A program made the position numbers and the translations under genes. Positions 6,948-33,177 of a DNA stretch of 64,000 bases are shown here, in pieces; the stretch's first letter is position 1, and every line of letters starts with the position of its first letter. The notes under the pieces were generated by a model, which searched no databases, was not told where the DNA came from, and saw only the letters and a program-made list of their open reading frames with translations. Source of the stretch: an uncultured Coriobacteriaceae bacterium (GTDB lineage Bacteria; Actinomycetota; Coriobacteriia; Coriobacteriales; Atopobiaceae); contig CACYWP010000002.1 in NCBI GenBank assembly GCA_902778135.1, positions 1 to 64,000 of the forward strand, given 5' to 3'.

Positions 6948-7732
6948 GCGCGCCTCCTGACTTGCCGGATTCCCTGCCGACTCATGCCCCAAAACCCGAG
7001 CAGACCGCGCCTGACCTGCGGCTTTGCAGCCTGTCTTACGGTCTCACCCAGAATTCGGGTACAGTCCCCCGCGCGCGGGCGCGCGGGCGCGTGCGCATGG
7101 ATGTCTGCACCCACGACCTTCAAGACGGTAAGACGGGGAGCGTGCTCGGACACGAACATCTCCAGGGCGTTGTTGTCGATGACCACGCAGTACGTCCTGT
7201 GGGCGCTCTCGCCGATGCGGCGCTGCCTCACGTACCCCTTTGTGCCCGCGGCGACGATGCCCTCATCGAACATTCGTGCTAATGTCTTGGTGCGGTCGTA
7301 GTTGCCCCTGTTGAGCGCCTCGGTGAGGGCGGAGCTGATGACCAGCCAGTCGAACCCGAGCCCGTCCCTGTGCTGCTCGGTCGCGCCGTGGCGCTCCAGG
7401 CGGTCGTCCTCGCAGGTGTCGGAGAAGTGCATCTCGTTGCGCGAGAGCCGGTCGGCCACGTACTGGATCGCCTTGAGGTCGGTGTCGCCGCCGTCGGCGT
7501 CGGTCGCGTTGGTGACCAGCCAGTAGGCGTTCGCGAGGGCTCCTCCCACGGCGAGCTCCCAGTCGCAAGCGCCGGGCGAGAAGACGTAGACCTCGGCGAG
7601 GGCGTCGGCCAGCGCCAGCAGGGCGATGTTGTCCGTCTGCGGGTGCCCACCCGAGAACTCGTCGACCTGTGAGCGGATCCACTTGTACTGCTCGCGGTAC
7701 CAGGCGCGGTCGTTTCCGCGAAGCGCCGTCAC
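6944..7732 (-). pseudogene. C-terminal remnant of DUF927-type phage/plasmid replication protein
   Basis: The 262-codon frame begins at a GTG shortly after an in-frame TAG and resembles only the C-terminal part of DUF927-family helicase/primase-like proteins. Visible features are WYREQYKWI, the stretch GGHPQTDNIALLALADALAEV, and a winged-helix-like end (LARMFDEGIVAAGTKGYVRQRR ... RTYCVVIDNN, in two parts). The Toprim/ATPase portions that precede this in intact proteins are missing, replaced upstream by a decayed IS256-type transposase. The last 60 residues are Arg-rich and atypical, possibly out of frame. It is co-oriented with the Myb/zinc-ribbon gene downstream. Function is presumably lost. 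Confidence 0.5.
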
Positions 7733-28080: not shown

Positions 28081-30270
28081 CTACGCCTCGCCCTCCAGCC
28101 GCTGGCGCGCCACGAGCTCGGCAAAGAAGCCGTCCTGGGCCAGCAGCTCCTCGTAGGTCCCGTCCTCGATGATCTTGCCCTTGTCCAGGACGACGATCCG
28201 GTCGCACTGGCGGATGGTGCTCAGGCGGTGGGCGATGACGATGCGCGTGCACCTCATGCGGTCGAGCGCCTCCGACACCTGCCGCTGCGTCAGGTTGTCC
28301 AGCGCCGAGGTGGCCTCGTCGAATATCAGGATCTTCGGCTTGGGCGCCACGGCGCGCGCGATCAGGATGCGCTGCCGCTGCCCGCCCGAGACCCCGCCCT
28401 GGCCCTCGGAGATGACGGTGTGCATGCCCATGGGCATCTGACGGATGTCGTCGGCCAGCCCCGCGATCTCCGCCGCCTCCCAGGCGTCGCTCATCGTCAG
28501 CCAGGGGGCGACGATGGTGATGTTGGAGTAGATGTTGCCGGAGAAGAGCTTGCCGTTCTGCATGACCGTGCCGATGCGGCGGCGCAGGGACTTCAGGTCG
28601 AGGCGCGAGATGTCGCGGCCGTCATAGAACACGGAGCCCTTCTGCGGCGTCTCGAAGCCCAGCATGACGCGCATGAGCGTGGACTTGCCGCAGCCGGTCT
28701 TTCCCACGATGGCCACGTACTCGCCCGGGTGGACCTTCAGCGAGATGTCGTCCAGTACCGCCGGCATGTCCTTGCTGTAGCCGAAGGTGATGTTGTTGAG
28801 CTCGATGTCGCCGGACAGGTGCGTGACGACCTCCTTGTTCTCGGAGATCTCCGGCACGGTCTCCAGCAGGGGCCTCACCATCTCCAGCGTGGGCCCGATC
28901 TGCGCGACGGAGAGGCCGATGCCCGCAAGGGTCAGGAACGCCCCGTTCACCATGCCATACGCGACGTTGAAGGCGTAGTACTCCGCCGCGGAGATGTTGC
29001 CGCGGATGGCGGCGTAGTAGATGACCATCGTCCCGACGAGCGAGACGGCCGTGGTCAGCACCGTGCTGACCTTCAGGAACAGGGGAGGGTTGTACGCCAG
29101 CTCGGCCTGCTTTGCGTACGCCTTCGCCCAGCGGCTGAAGGCCCGCTTCTCGGCCCCGGCCAGGCGGATTTTCTGGATGCCGGAGATCAGGCCATAGCTG
29201 ACGCCGCTCTCCTTGGCTCCCAGCAGCATCTGGCGCTTGGACACGCTCGTCTGCATCAGCACGGAGGCCACCGTGATGAGCAGCGTGAGCAGCGTGACGA
29301 CCAGCGCCGGCACCAGCAGCGCGGGGGTGTAGCGGATGATCTGCCCGATGTAGGCAAGGGAGAACACCGACGAGAGGCCCGTGGTCAGCACCATGCTGAC
29401 CAGCTGGTTCGCGAGCGTGCTGATGGTGCTCACGCGCTCCGAGAGCTCGCCGGCGCTGTAGTCCTTGAAGAAGGCGGCGGGCAGCGAGAGCATCCTCATC
29501 ATGGCGGCCGCCTCGACGTTGACGCTGAGCTTCGTGTTGATGCGCGAGCTGGCCAGGGTGCTGACCACGCCGAACATCAGGGAGCTCACTGACGCGCACA
29601 CGAGGAAGATGCCCGCCCCCAAGAGCATCCGTATGCTGCCCGACTCGAGGACGTCGGAGAACAGCAGGGCGTTCATGCGCGGCAGGATGAAGCCGACCAG
29701 CGTCACGGCGGCCATGGCGGCAACGAGCATCGCCAGGTCCGAAGGCGAGACCTGCTCCACGATGTAGCGCATGAGGTCGGGAATGCCCATCCTCTTCAGC
29801 GGGAAGGGCTTGTAGAAGGCGAGCGCCTCCGTCTCGATCAGGCCCTCGGTCCGTCGGCCGAGGATTACGTTCCTTCCCGTCTTGCGGTCGTAGAAGCGGT
29901 ATCCCGACAGGCCGTGGGGCATCAGCGCCACCACGCTGCCGTCATCCTTGCGGGTTCCCAGCATGGGGCCGACCGCGTCACGGTACCAGCCCCGCTCCAG
30001 CCTGACCGTCCGGCGCATGATGCCGTGAGGTCGCATGAGGTACTCCAGCACCTCGTTCATGTCCTGGATGCCGTCGGGGACCTCGGAGGCCCGCACATGG
30101 TAGAACGCCAGTATCTCGCCGACGGCGTCGGTCGTGACCTCGCGGCTGTCGTTGAGCGCCTGCGACATCCGCCGTCCCATGACTGCCTCGGCGATACTCG
30201 TGAACGAGTCCGCGAAGGCCGCCTCGTCCGCTTGCTTGCGCTGGCGTATCTGCTCGTCAAACCAACCCAC
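28081..30270 (-). CDS. NHLM-type ABC transporter 2 (no peptidase domain)
   Basis: 729 aa. An N-terminal cytoplasmic domain of about 150 residues replaces the C39 peptidase (RRTVRLERGWYRDAVGPML, FYDRKTGRNVILGRR), as in the second ABC protein of NHLM peptide-export systems. Membrane helices span about 190-460. The ATPase has Walker A GKTGCGKST, signature VSGGQRQR and Walker B ILIFDEATSALD. It lies 16 bp behind the peptidase-containing transporter and probably forms a heteromeric exporter or works in sequence with it. No inactivating change was seen. Confidence 0.85.
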   Translation of the reverse strand: MGWFDEQIRQRKQADEAAFADSFTSIAEAVMGRRMSQALNDSREVTTDAVGEILAFYHVRASEVPDGIQDMNEVLEYLMRPHGIMRRTVRLERGWYRDAVGPMLGTRKDDGSVVALMPHGLSGYRFYDRKTGRNVILGRRTEGLIETEALAFYKPFPLKRMGIPDLMRYIVEQVSPSDLAMLVAAMAAVTLVGFILPRMNALLFSDVLESGSIRMLLGAGIFLVCASVSSLMFGVVSTLASSRINTKLSVNVEAAAMMRMLSLPAAFFKDYSAGELSERVSTISTLANQLVSMVLTTGLSSVFSLAYIGQIIRYTPALLVPALVVTLLTLLITVASVLMQTSVSKRQMLLGAKESGVSYGLISGIQKIRLAGAEKRAFSRWAKAYAKQAELAYNPPLFLKVSTVLTTAVSLVGTMVIYYAAIRGNISAAEYYAFNVAYGMVNGAFLTLAGIGLSVAQIGPTLEMVRPLLETVPEISENKEVVTHLSGDIELNNITFGYSKDMPAVLDDISLKVHPGEYVAIVGKTGCGKSTLMRVMLGFETPQKGSVFYDGRDISRLDLKSLRRRIGTVMQNGKLFSGNIYSNITIVAPWLTMSDAWEAAEIAGLADDIRQMPMGMHTVISEGQGGVSGGQRQRILIARAVAPKPKILIFDEATSALDNLTQRQVSEALDRMRCTRIVIAHRLSTIRQCDRIVVLDKGKIIEDGTYEELLAQDGFFAELVARQRLEGEA

Positions 30271-30286: not shown

Positions 30287-32461
30287 TCACTCGTTGCTGA
30301 CGAGCGACTTGTAGGTCCCGTCCAGGGCCATCAGCTCGTCATGGGTTCCGCGCTCGACGACCTTGCCGTGGTCGAGCACGACGATCTCGTCGCAGTCCCT
30401 CACGGTGCTCAGGCGGTGGGCGATGACAATGCAGGTGATGCCGCGCTCGCGGATGGAGTTGACGACCTCGTACTCGGTGCGTGCGTCCAGCGCGGAGGTG
30501 GCCTCGTCCATGATGATCATCGTGGGGTCCTGGGCCAGCACGCGGGCGATCTCGAGGCGCTGCCGCTGCCCGCCGGAGAAGTCCTTGCCCCCCTCGGTGA
30601 TCCTGTAGTGGTAGCCGCCGCGCCGCTTCATGATGTCCTCGTGGATGCTGGCGTCGCGTGCGGCCAGGATCATCTCGAAGTCCTCGATGGACCTGTCCCA
30701 CATCTTGATGTTGCCGGCGATGCTGTCCTCGAACAGGATGATGTCCTGGTCGACGACCGCCACCGACCCCGTGAACACGCTGCGGCTGATCTGGGAGATG
30801 GGCTTCCCGTCGAACAGGATCTCGCCGCTCCATGGCTGGTAGAGCCCGGAGATGAGCTTGGTGAGCGTCGACTTGCCGCAGCCCGAGGCGCCCACGAAGG
30901 CCACGCGCTGGCCCGGCCTCAGCTCGAGGTCGAAGTTCTCGATGAGCGGCTCGCCCAGCCGGGAGTAGCCGAAGGTCACGTCACGCATGCTCAGGGCGCC
31001 CGACAGCTTGTCGTAGCGCTCGGCGTCCGCCGCCTGCTCGAAGACCGGGTCGTCGGGATACTCCATCACGTCCTCGATGCGCTCCATGCTGGTGCGCATC
31101 TCCTGGATCGTCTGTCCGGCGGTTATCAGCTGGCCGGACGGGGCGAGGAACGAGTTCATGAAGCCCTGGAAGGCGAAGATCATGCCCACGGTGAAGCGTC
31201 CCTGCATGGTCAGCCACACGCCCAGCACGAGCACCAGGATGTTCATGATGGAGCTGACGGAACCGGTGATGATGCCCAGCATCTGGTCCTGCCTGTTGTA
31301 GCGCACGTTCTGCGCGCTGACGGCGGCCTGGTGCCCAGCCCACTTCTCGAAGTAGCCGTTCTCGGCCCCGCTGGCCTTGATGGTCTCGATCATGTCCACC
31401 GCGCCGACCGTCGCGGCGGCCAGCTTTCCCTGGTCGCGCATCAGGACGCGGGTGAGGTTGATGCGCTTGTTGGAGACCATTCGCGAGATCGCGGCGTCCA
31501 GCGCCACCGAGAGCAGGCCCACGCAGGTCAGCAGGGGAGAGTAGCGCACCATCACCACGAGGTAGAAGACCATCATGGCGCTGTTGATCGCCAGGGGGGC
31601 GACCGTGTCCACCACGACGCTTGCGACGGATGCGTTCAGGGACATGCGGCTCTGGATGTCGCCCGCCATGCGCTGCGAGAAGAACTCCATCGGCAGGCGC
31701 AGGACCTTCCACATGTAGCTCGCGTTGCCCACGGCGGACAGCTTGCCGTTCATGCGCAGGGAGTAGACCGCCTGGATCCAGGCGACGACGAGCTCCACCA
31801 GGGTGATGGCGCCCAGCCCCAGGAAGAAGGGGAGGACCCATTCGCGGTTGAGCCCGACCAGCAGCTGGTCGAGGAAGACGCGCGAGAAGCCCGCCTTCAC
31901 GATGGACGTCAGCGAGGAGATGATGATGGCGGCCATGACGAAGAGCGTGATGGAGCCCGTTCCGCGCAGCTGCTTCCTCGCAAAGCCCAGCACGCTCTTG
32001 GGCTTGCCGCTCGGCTCGAAGGACTCGCTGGGGTCGAGCATCAGGACGATGCCCGTGAAGGCCTCGTCAAAGCGCTCGCGGCTGACCGCGTAGCTGCCCT
32101 TGGCGGGGTCGTTGAGATAGACCTTGTCCCCGCGGAAGCCGTCGCAGACCACGAAATGGTTGAACTCCCAGTGGATGATGCAGGGGAACTGGCCATCCCT
32201 TGCGAGCTCGTCCGGCTCGTAGCGATAGCCGTTTGCGGTGAGGCCATAGCTGCGGGCCGCCCGCAGGATGTTCCGGGCATTCGATCCATCCCGGCTCACC
32301 CCGCAGTCGGCCCGCACCTGTTCCAGCGGAATCCATTTGTCGTAATACGCCAGGACCATGCACAGGGAGGCGGCACCACACTCCAGTGCCTCCATCTGCA
32401 TCACCACGGGAACCTTTGCCACCCCGCGGTTGATGGGCTTCCTGACCTTACGATTCGCCAT
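30287..32461 (-). CDS. NHLM-type ABC transporter 1 with C39 leader peptidase
   Basis: 724 aa. The N-terminal C39 peptidase carries its complete active site: Gln22, Cys28 (MQMEALECGAASLCMV), His102 (HWEFNHFVV) and Asp118 (LNDPAKG). Membrane helices follow at about 160-430. The ATPase has Walker A GASGCGKST, signature FSGGQRQR and Walker B IIMDEATSALD. It removes the double-glycine leader of the precursor encoded 47 bp upstream and exports the mature part. The pairing with a second ABC protein and an NHLM-type membrane anchor fits the NHLM export family. Confidence 0.9.
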   Translation of the reverse strand: MANRKVRKPINRGVAKVPVVMQMEALECGAASLCMVLAYYDKWIPLEQVRADCGVSRDGSNARNILRAARSYGLTANGYRYEPDELARDGQFPCIIHWEFNHFVVCDGFRGDKVYLNDPAKGSYAVSRERFDEAFTGIVLMLDPSESFEPSGKPKSVLGFARKQLRGTGSITLFVMAAIIISSLTSIVKAGFSRVFLDQLLVGLNREWVLPFFLGLGAITLVELVVAWIQAVYSLRMNGKLSAVGNASYMWKVLRLPMEFFSQRMAGDIQSRMSLNASVASVVVDTVAPLAINSAMMVFYLVVMVRYSPLLTCVGLLSVALDAAISRMVSNKRINLTRVLMRDQGKLAAATVGAVDMIETIKASGAENGYFEKWAGHQAAVSAQNVRYNRQDQMLGIITGSVSSIMNILVLVLGVWLTMQGRFTVGMIFAFQGFMNSFLAPSGQLITAGQTIQEMRTSMERIEDVMEYPDDPVFEQAADAERYDKLSGALSMRDVTFGYSRLGEPLIENFDLELRPGQRVAFVGASGCGKSTLTKLISGLYQPWSGEILFDGKPISQISRSVFTGSVAVVDQDIILFEDSIAGNIKMWDRSIEDFEMILAARDASIHEDIMKRRGGYHYRITEGGKDFSGGQRQRLEIARVLAQDPTMIIMDEATSALDARTEYEVVNSIRERGITCIVIAHRLSTVRDCDEIVVLDHGKVVERGTHDELMALDGTYKSLVSNE

Positions 32462-32508: not shown

Positions 32509-32808
32509 CTACGCCACGTTGTTGGGGTTGACGTAGCCGTACTTGCCGTTCTTGTAGGCGAAGTACCAGCCCTGCTCCTTGTAGGTCTTGTGCACCAGGA
32601 TGTTGTCACCGTTCTGCCAGCCGATGCCCTGGATGATGGTGCCACCGGGCGTCTTGCGCAGGGTCAGGCAAGCGGTCTCGTCATAGTGAATGACGTTGCA
32701 GACCTTCTTGGTCACGAAGTTCTTGAGGTTGTGGATCTCGTCGGTGCCCGCGCCGCCTGCGACCTCTTCGAGCTGGTCGTCGTTCAGTGCCTGCTTGATC
32801 TCATCCAT
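32509..32808 (-). CDS. Double-glycine precursor with SH3b-like cargo domain
   Basis: 99 aa from ATG 32808, behind AGAAAGGAAA. The leader MDEIKQALNDDQLEEVAGG ends in Gly18-Gly19, with the usual L-x-x-V-x-GG pattern of C39-cleaved leaders. The predicted 80-aa mature protein has Cys37 and Cys47 (KKVCNVIHYDETACL) and then a pattern of bacterial SH3 domains: LTLRKTPGGTIIQGIGW, GDNILVHKTYKEQGWYF and GKYGYVNPNNVA. SH3b domains usually bind cell-wall peptides. No modification enzyme is encoded nearby, so this looks like an unmodified folded protein rather than a classical small bacteriocin. It is located between membrane anchor and peptidase-transporter genes. Confidence 0.8.
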   Translation of the reverse strand: MDEIKQALNDDQLEEVAGGAGTDEIHNLKNFVTKKVCNVIHYDETACLTLRKTPGGTIIQGIGWQNGDNILVHKTYKEQGWYFAYKNGKYGYVNPNNVA

Positions 32809-32955: not shown

Positions 32956-33177
32956 TCAGTTGGTCACGAAGGAGATGGGGTGCGTCTGCGTGACGCTGCC
33001 GTCCTCGTTCTCGACGGACACCGTGCCCAACACGCCCCATGCCAGCATCCCCACCAGCAGGATCGTCGTGGCCAGCAGCACCAGCCACACCGAGGGGGTG
33101 GCGACCCGGATGTAGTCGTTCAGCTCCTCGGGGGAGTTGATGCGTTCCATGCTCTTGTCGCGAAACAGCTCGCCCAT
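32956..33177 (-). CDS. Truncated NHLM secretion protein (HlyD-like N-terminal anchor only)
   Basis: 73 aa from ATG 33177, behind GGGAGGGAAAG. The N-terminus GELFRDKSMERINSPEELND matches the conserved start of NHLM HlyD-like secretion proteins (LFRxxAL(E/D)RxSSPEQLD), followed by a single transmembrane helix (VWLVLLATTILLVGMLAWGV). Normal family members continue for another 150-250 residues with coiled-coil and lipoyl-like parts; here the protein ends after 20 periplasmic-side residues (ENEDGSVTQTHPISFVTN). The gene has a clean start and stop, and there is no continuation in other frames, so this may be a functional mini-form. It is first in the operon. Confidence 0.7.
   Translation of the reverse strand: MGELFRDKSMERINSPEELNDYIRVATPSVWLVLLATTILLVGMLAWGVLGTVSVENEDGSVTQTHPISFVTN

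Follow-up and report, generated by a model that had tools for sequence, protein, structure and literature searches.

C39/NHLM exporters are mostly discussed in connection with small modified peptides. The locus described here raises the question of what such an exporter carries when the precursor gene beside it encodes an SH3-like domain, and what the product might do outside the cell. The window that we analysed is the whole 64,000-nucleotide stretch at positions 1 to 64,000 of contig CACYWP010000002.1 (assembly GCA_902778135.1), from an uncultured Coriobacteriaceae bacterium of the gut (GTDB family Atopobiaceae). An earlier note, made from the letters of the window, had proposed that an NHLM exporter here secretes a folded SH3b-like protein. 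We read the locus as a dedicated export cassette for one unmodified wall-binding antagonist with an SH3 fold, and give this whole reading a probability of roughly 0.4.

The exporter operon and its precursor

Four consecutive genes on the minus strand form the operon, in the order mini-HlyD (32956..33177, 73 aa), precursor (32509..32808, 99 aa and a stop codon), ABC1 (30287..32461, 724 aa) and ABC2 (28081..30270, 729 aa), separated by gaps of 147, 47 and 16 bases. Downstream lies a helicase-like ORF in the opposite orientation, and upstream are a 188-aa ORF on the opposite strand and a GH1-type glycosidase; these neighbours were named by inspection, not by profile. A scan for promoters and terminators returned sites no commoner than by chance. 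Among the operon's four genes no immunity, receptor or regulator gene was recognised.

ABC1 combines a C39 peptidase, a permease and an ATPase. It scores 928.5 bits on TIGR03796 (cut-off 853.3) and also matches Pfam Peptidase_C39; Cys28, His102 and Asp118 are present by motif, and Walker A, Walker B and the signature are intact. ABC2 has a permease and an ATPase without a peptidase, scores 730.5 bits on TIGR03797 (cut-off 709.4) and keeps its ATPase motifs. On these scores the exporter pair is NHLM; the adaptor and leader families miss the strict NHLM definitions. The NHLM/NHLP export systems (TIGR03794, TIGR03796 and TIGR03797) reportedly go back to Haft et al. in 2010. The locus resembles them in its adjoining ABC1 with C39 and ABC2, both above cut-off, beside a double-glycine precursor, and differs from them in its 73-aa HlyD, its SH3-like cargo, and the lack of an NHLP or Nif11 leader and of a modifying enzyme in the locus. 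In its working it would resemble an NHLM exporter whose precursor is of class II type.

The precursor ORF starts with ATG behind a purine-rich ribosome site, aacagaaaggaaacggacATG. Its first 19 residues, MDEIKQALNDDQLEEVAGG (32752..32808, minus strand), form a double-glycine leader with L(-12), L(-7), V(-4) and GG(-2,-1). The published PCAT leader consensus is L(-12)xxxE(-8)L(-7)xxxxGG (PMC6959990); the leader fits the PCAT/LahT consensus at -12, -7, -2 and -1, is hydrophobic at -4, and has Q at -8 where the orthologues have E. By sequence consensus it is a leader of the type that a C39 peptidase reads. Neither the precursor nor its orthologues matched the NHLP (TIGR03793) or Nif11 (TIGR03798) leader profiles. 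Bacteriocin_IIc, a double-glycine bacteriocin family, was matched below cut-off by four of the five orthologues (best E 0.0011), and the window protein itself had no match to it.

Cleavage after the glycines would leave a mature cargo of 80 aa and 9.0 kDa (32512..32751, minus strand). Cys37 and Cys47 are invariant among the orthologues, which are 60-77% identical. DsbA was not found in four of the five cargo-carrying genomes, so a Cys37-Cys47 disulfide is unsupported. The SH3-like core spans residues 46-98 or thereabouts (32515..32673, minus strand), beyond which lies a conserved N-terminal extension, residues 20-45. The double-glycine precursor with its 80-residue, two-cysteine cargo and its pairing with an NHLM/C39 exporter, both claimed in the earlier note, are borne out by the translation, the leader consensus and the adjoining ABC genes, and we hold the gene, leader and exporter pairing to be real with high confidence.

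Two known systems help to place the locus. Set beside PCAT1/CtA of Clostridium thermocellum and LahT, the leader is alike at the four consensus positions just given, ABC1 aligns with PCAT1 over residues 18-718 (1.8e-94), its peptidase aligns with 6mpz, and cargo size is comparable (CtA residues 25-90; 80 aa here). A second, peptidase-less ABC gene sets the present locus apart. Class II unmodified bacteriocins share the short GG leader, the C39 exporter and the lack of a modifying enzyme; the SH3 domain and the lack of a recognised immunity gene in the operon distinguish the locus from them.

Occurrence and evolution of the cassette

The cargo is patchily distributed, being found in five of 140 family genomes and in two genera (the window's genome G000, G127, G137, G130 and G071); the family genomes are drafts, which limits claims of absence. 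G127 is the public MAG 'Atopobiaceae bacterium' from water deer ileum, and a search of genome_contigs returned a single locus, on the same contig as that of G127. All five genomes have mini-HlyD, cargo and ABC1 in this order, the contig of G130 ending after the first 28 codons of ABC1. A whole ABC2 follows in the window, G127 and G137; G071 has part of it, at the end of its contig. The search for other SH3b proteins with double-glycine leaders beside C39 transporters, which the earlier note had suggested, thus added four further family genomes, and the homologues without leader or transporter that it had named as counter-evidence did not turn up, all five keeping the leader and an adjoining ABC1.

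Three loci have a GH13-type gene next to them; the neighbours differ in G127 and in the window. At the four loci where ABC1 is full-length, its genes group in one clade with support 100, and therefore exporter and cargo travel together. Contamination by the same sequence was rejected as the source of the G071 copy, which has 93.4% DNA identity to that of G130 over 1,536 bases; the copy may have come by transfer or by mis-binning of a relative. The cargo evolves faster than its exporter, with dN/dS of 0.30-0.72 versus 0.15-0.23 for full-length ABC1 pairs. Such faster change might be what is expected of an effector, although values below 1 can arise without an arms race.

Outside the family, even draws of 398 class and 396 phylum genomes gave zero full-length relatives and weak partial matches only. 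Plasmids gave no cargo relatives at E 0.01, and viral contigs gave none either. Among about 90 exporter loci searched by pattern for nearby GG precursors, an SH3b cargo was found in the window's group only, SH3 in the other precursors being judged by eye and by Pfam on nine, so that a divergent case could escape. One open-access literature collection held no described SH3 protein with a double-glycine leader, which is weak evidence of absence.

Another cargo came to light in the family. Five loci (L117, L118, L122, L123 and L124) have a near-identical 49-aa cargo adjoining NHLM exporters, with a short GG leader (MADEKQTL..DDVTGG and close variants); the one that was scanned had no convincing Pfam family.

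Fold of the cargo

The only Pfam-A family found for the window protein is SH3_2 (E=1.7e-4, residues 54-98), whose 21.7 bits lie 0.1 bit under the cut-off of 21.8; all five orthologues match it (best E 6e-5). Profile-profile comparison of the cargo with the SH3b repeats of longer proteins from the same family gave E=1.8e-4 and a probability of 48%. On a profile of the family's Sec-type SH3b repeats the window cargo scored 13.6 bits, a thin margin over the best shuffled cargo at 12.8 bits (5,000 shuffled cargos made, 4,822 scored), and the other orthologues scored 16.8, 8.8, 8.5 and 6.0 bits. When the orthologue alignment was used as a profile against the PDB, no significant match emerged.

An AF2 model was made from the five orthologues, with known SH3b repeats left out of the input so that the answer was not built in. 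Its confidence is moderate (pLDDT 60, pTM 0.53, residues 69-98 near 75), and 43 of its 99 residues fall below pLDDT 50. The best 50 PDB matches of this model by Foldseek are all SH3 domains or proteins that contain one (probability 0.93-1.00, E about 0.01-0.1) and include the C. perfringens SH3 fragment 2krs; among the best viral matches, several are SH3b proteins, endolysins or peptidoglycan hydrolases. These lines of evidence are each moderate and jointly make an SH3-type fold likely, the SH3 barrel being predicted with moderate confidence. The SH3b pattern first noticed in the cargo therefore stands as SH3-type, and the fold prediction proposed as its check pointed the same way.

Proposed export and function

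In our reading the C39 domain of the adjoining ABC1 would read the precursor's leader helix and cut after Gly-Gly, for which PCAT1 and LahT are the models (PMC6959990, PMC6363468). The 80-aa cargo would be driven out through the ABC1/ABC2 exporter, of which mini-HlyD would be a membrane-anchored accessory reduced to the needs of a single-membrane cell. By analogy with those models, cleavage and export of the cargo by this exporter are highly probable. Export of the protein already folded, as first worded, found no support: the 66-residue PCAT1 cargo is unstructured in the cavity (PMC6959990), and folding outside is therefore the simpler assumption. The cargo here differs from that of PCAT1 in its predicted SH3-type domain. 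Folded passage would be compatible with size, since the cargo volume of about 10,900 cubic angstroms (from 9.0 kDa by rule of thumb) is below the 15,000 cubic angstroms estimated for the PCAT1 cavity (PMC6959990).

Once outside, the cargo would adopt the SH3b fold, bind an envelope target, most likely the stem or cross-bridge peptides of the peptidoglycan of neighbouring bacteria, and act as a wall-binding antagonist. SH3b domains often bind peptidoglycan, and not every one is known to. For SH3b domains of wall hydrolases such binding has been shown (PMC6461655) and proposed (PMC8470621), and wall binding by the cargo is plausible; no residue of any known peptidoglycan-binding site could be matched in it. 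The SH3-type core is shared, by profile and predicted fold, with the wall-binding domains of lysostaphin and the C. perfringens autolysin; the cargo differs from these in standing alone without a catalytic domain and in its predicted exit by a peptide exporter, not Sec. We consider it rather probable that the cargo acts on a bacterial envelope, and only tentatively that its action is antagonistic rather than adhesive. The exporter type points to antagonism, and the lack of a recognised immunity gene favours a milder role. We stop short of classing the product as a bacteriocin, since the search for an immunity gene recognised none; one of an unfamiliar type may have escaped.

The cargo could instead coat the producer's own wall, or link cells to one another, to mucus or to feed particles, without killing. 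Free SH3b domains serve for anchoring (PMC6461655, PMC8470621), a non-toxic product needs no immunity gene, and longer tandem SH3b-repeat proteins are present in the same family. Those longer proteins, one of which has a signal-like N-terminus (L024), also count the other way: one would not expect a structural protein to leave by a peptide exporter. Moreover, a single 9-kDa domain offers one binding site and no second module for bridging, and the occurrence of the cassette is patchy. We regard this use as unlikely, and for a leader-cleaved SH3b mini-protein at the cell envelope an antagonist is more likely than an adhesin.

A second alternative accepts the SH3 fold and changes its ligand to a host or microbial protein other than the wall, the cargo being for instance an inhibitor of an extracellular enzyme. 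It can appeal to the conserved extension ahead of the core and to the Foldseek list, where most of the best PDB matches are eukaryotic peptide-binding SH3 domains. The PDB is, however, dominated by eukaryotic SH3 structures, and the list is biased accordingly. The single-sequence structure model, which is poor (pLDDT 39), has strands 47-52 and 59-65 at the position of a hairpin reported to be peculiar to bacterial SH3b (PMC8470621). On this evidence a protein ligand of that kind seems improbable.

Double-glycine/C39 systems export pheromones in other bacteria, ComA being an example, and the cleaved cargo might likewise be a cell-cell signal. An 80-residue cargo with a domain fold argues against this, as does the operon, in which no sensor kinase or regulator gene was recognised at any locus, and we consider a signalling role very improbable.

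Modifying enzymes in the carrier genomes

The earlier note had seen no modifying enzyme close to the precursor, and this holds for the full 64-kb window, in which no LanC-, YcaO- or SPASM-type gene was found. Elsewhere in G000, contig 29 carries one LanC-like (LanM-like) gene and contig 20 one YcaO; the SPASM proteins are encoded either on other contigs or, on contig 2, over 150 kb beyond the window. The cargo might then be a RiPP whose modifying enzyme is encoded apart from it, and SPASM radical-SAM proteins do occur in all five carrier genomes. YcaO, however, was found in two of these five drafts and not in the other three, and LanC-like genes, present in 13 of the 140 family genomes, were found among the carriers in G000 only. 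Since searches of the four other drafts returned no LanC, lanthionine modification cannot be a shared rule. The LanM-like gene of contig 29 adjoins a Nif11-like precursor of its own, and the cargo leader matches neither Nif11 nor NHLP. A cognate modifying enzyme, by which a lanthipeptide would be recognised, was not identified; the cargo is most likely unmodified, and a RiPP has a slim chance.

That the LanM-like protein of contig 29 might modify the cargo in trans was considered separately and rejected as a general rule, in view of that protein's own precursor and of the absence of LanC elsewhere.

Several related systems were seen along the way. At L163:1047-4497 (contig 29 of G000) the LanM-like gene and its adjacent Nif11-like precursor have no exporter within the stretch that was read; they might be served by the one on contig 7 (L066), near which no precursor was found. 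On contig 1 of G000, repeated near-identical GG precursors lie downstream of another NHLM exporter (L067:13189-14453), and a Nif11-type precursor lies upstream of the same exporter, at 7080-7271. Across the family, NHLM ABC1-type matches occur in 51 of the 140 genomes, with up to 7 per genome among the matches listed, a count that includes ABC2 genes and draws on 7 scored candidates per genome; these genomes far outnumber the 13 with LanC-like genes.

A shortened adaptor

Mini-HlyD matches TIGR03794 over profile positions 1-45 of 421 (1.8e-8), and its 33.7 bits fall short of the 156.2-bit cut-off for a full HlyD-like protein. It corresponds to the N-terminus and one TM helix of the NHLM membrane-fusion protein, fused to the last strand of that protein (HPISFVTN), whose HPIxF matches the HPISFLL or HPIQFLL of other members. 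The other HlyD members of the family are mostly 140-200 aa, and alignment to them shows an internal deletion with the middle domain gone. Mini-HlyD is exactly 73 aa in all five genomes (an alternative upstream in-frame ATG would make it 86 aa), and with dN/dS of 0.09-0.25 it is therefore kept by purifying selection. That the loss of the middle domain marks a dying exporter, with the precursor as a passenger, is the least probable alternative and was rejected on this constant length and selection, the ATPase and peptidase motifs also being intact.

A 74-aa mini-HlyD was also found in G019 (L089:6037-6261), on a distant ABC1 branch, and HlyD shortening therefore probably arose twice. A 1,313-aa ORF with a signal-like segment lies just upstream of it.

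Implications

Mini-HlyD may have a role in immunity. A wider proposal would see in these loci a class of SH3b mini-proteins secreted against competitor walls by NHLM exporters whose HlyD has become a specialised 73-aa mini-adaptor, which possibly doubles as an immunity factor; we consider this speculative. New here is the 73-aa adaptor itself, of one length in five genomes and a natural minimal version of the NHLM adaptor. The conserved pairing with an SH3-fold cargo widens the range carried by C39/NHLM exporters, and this cargo is a defined and compact test case of how such exporters cope with a domain expected to fold. Should the cargo prove to bind walls and to inhibit, it would provide an antimicrobial scaffold different from those of known small bacteriocins.
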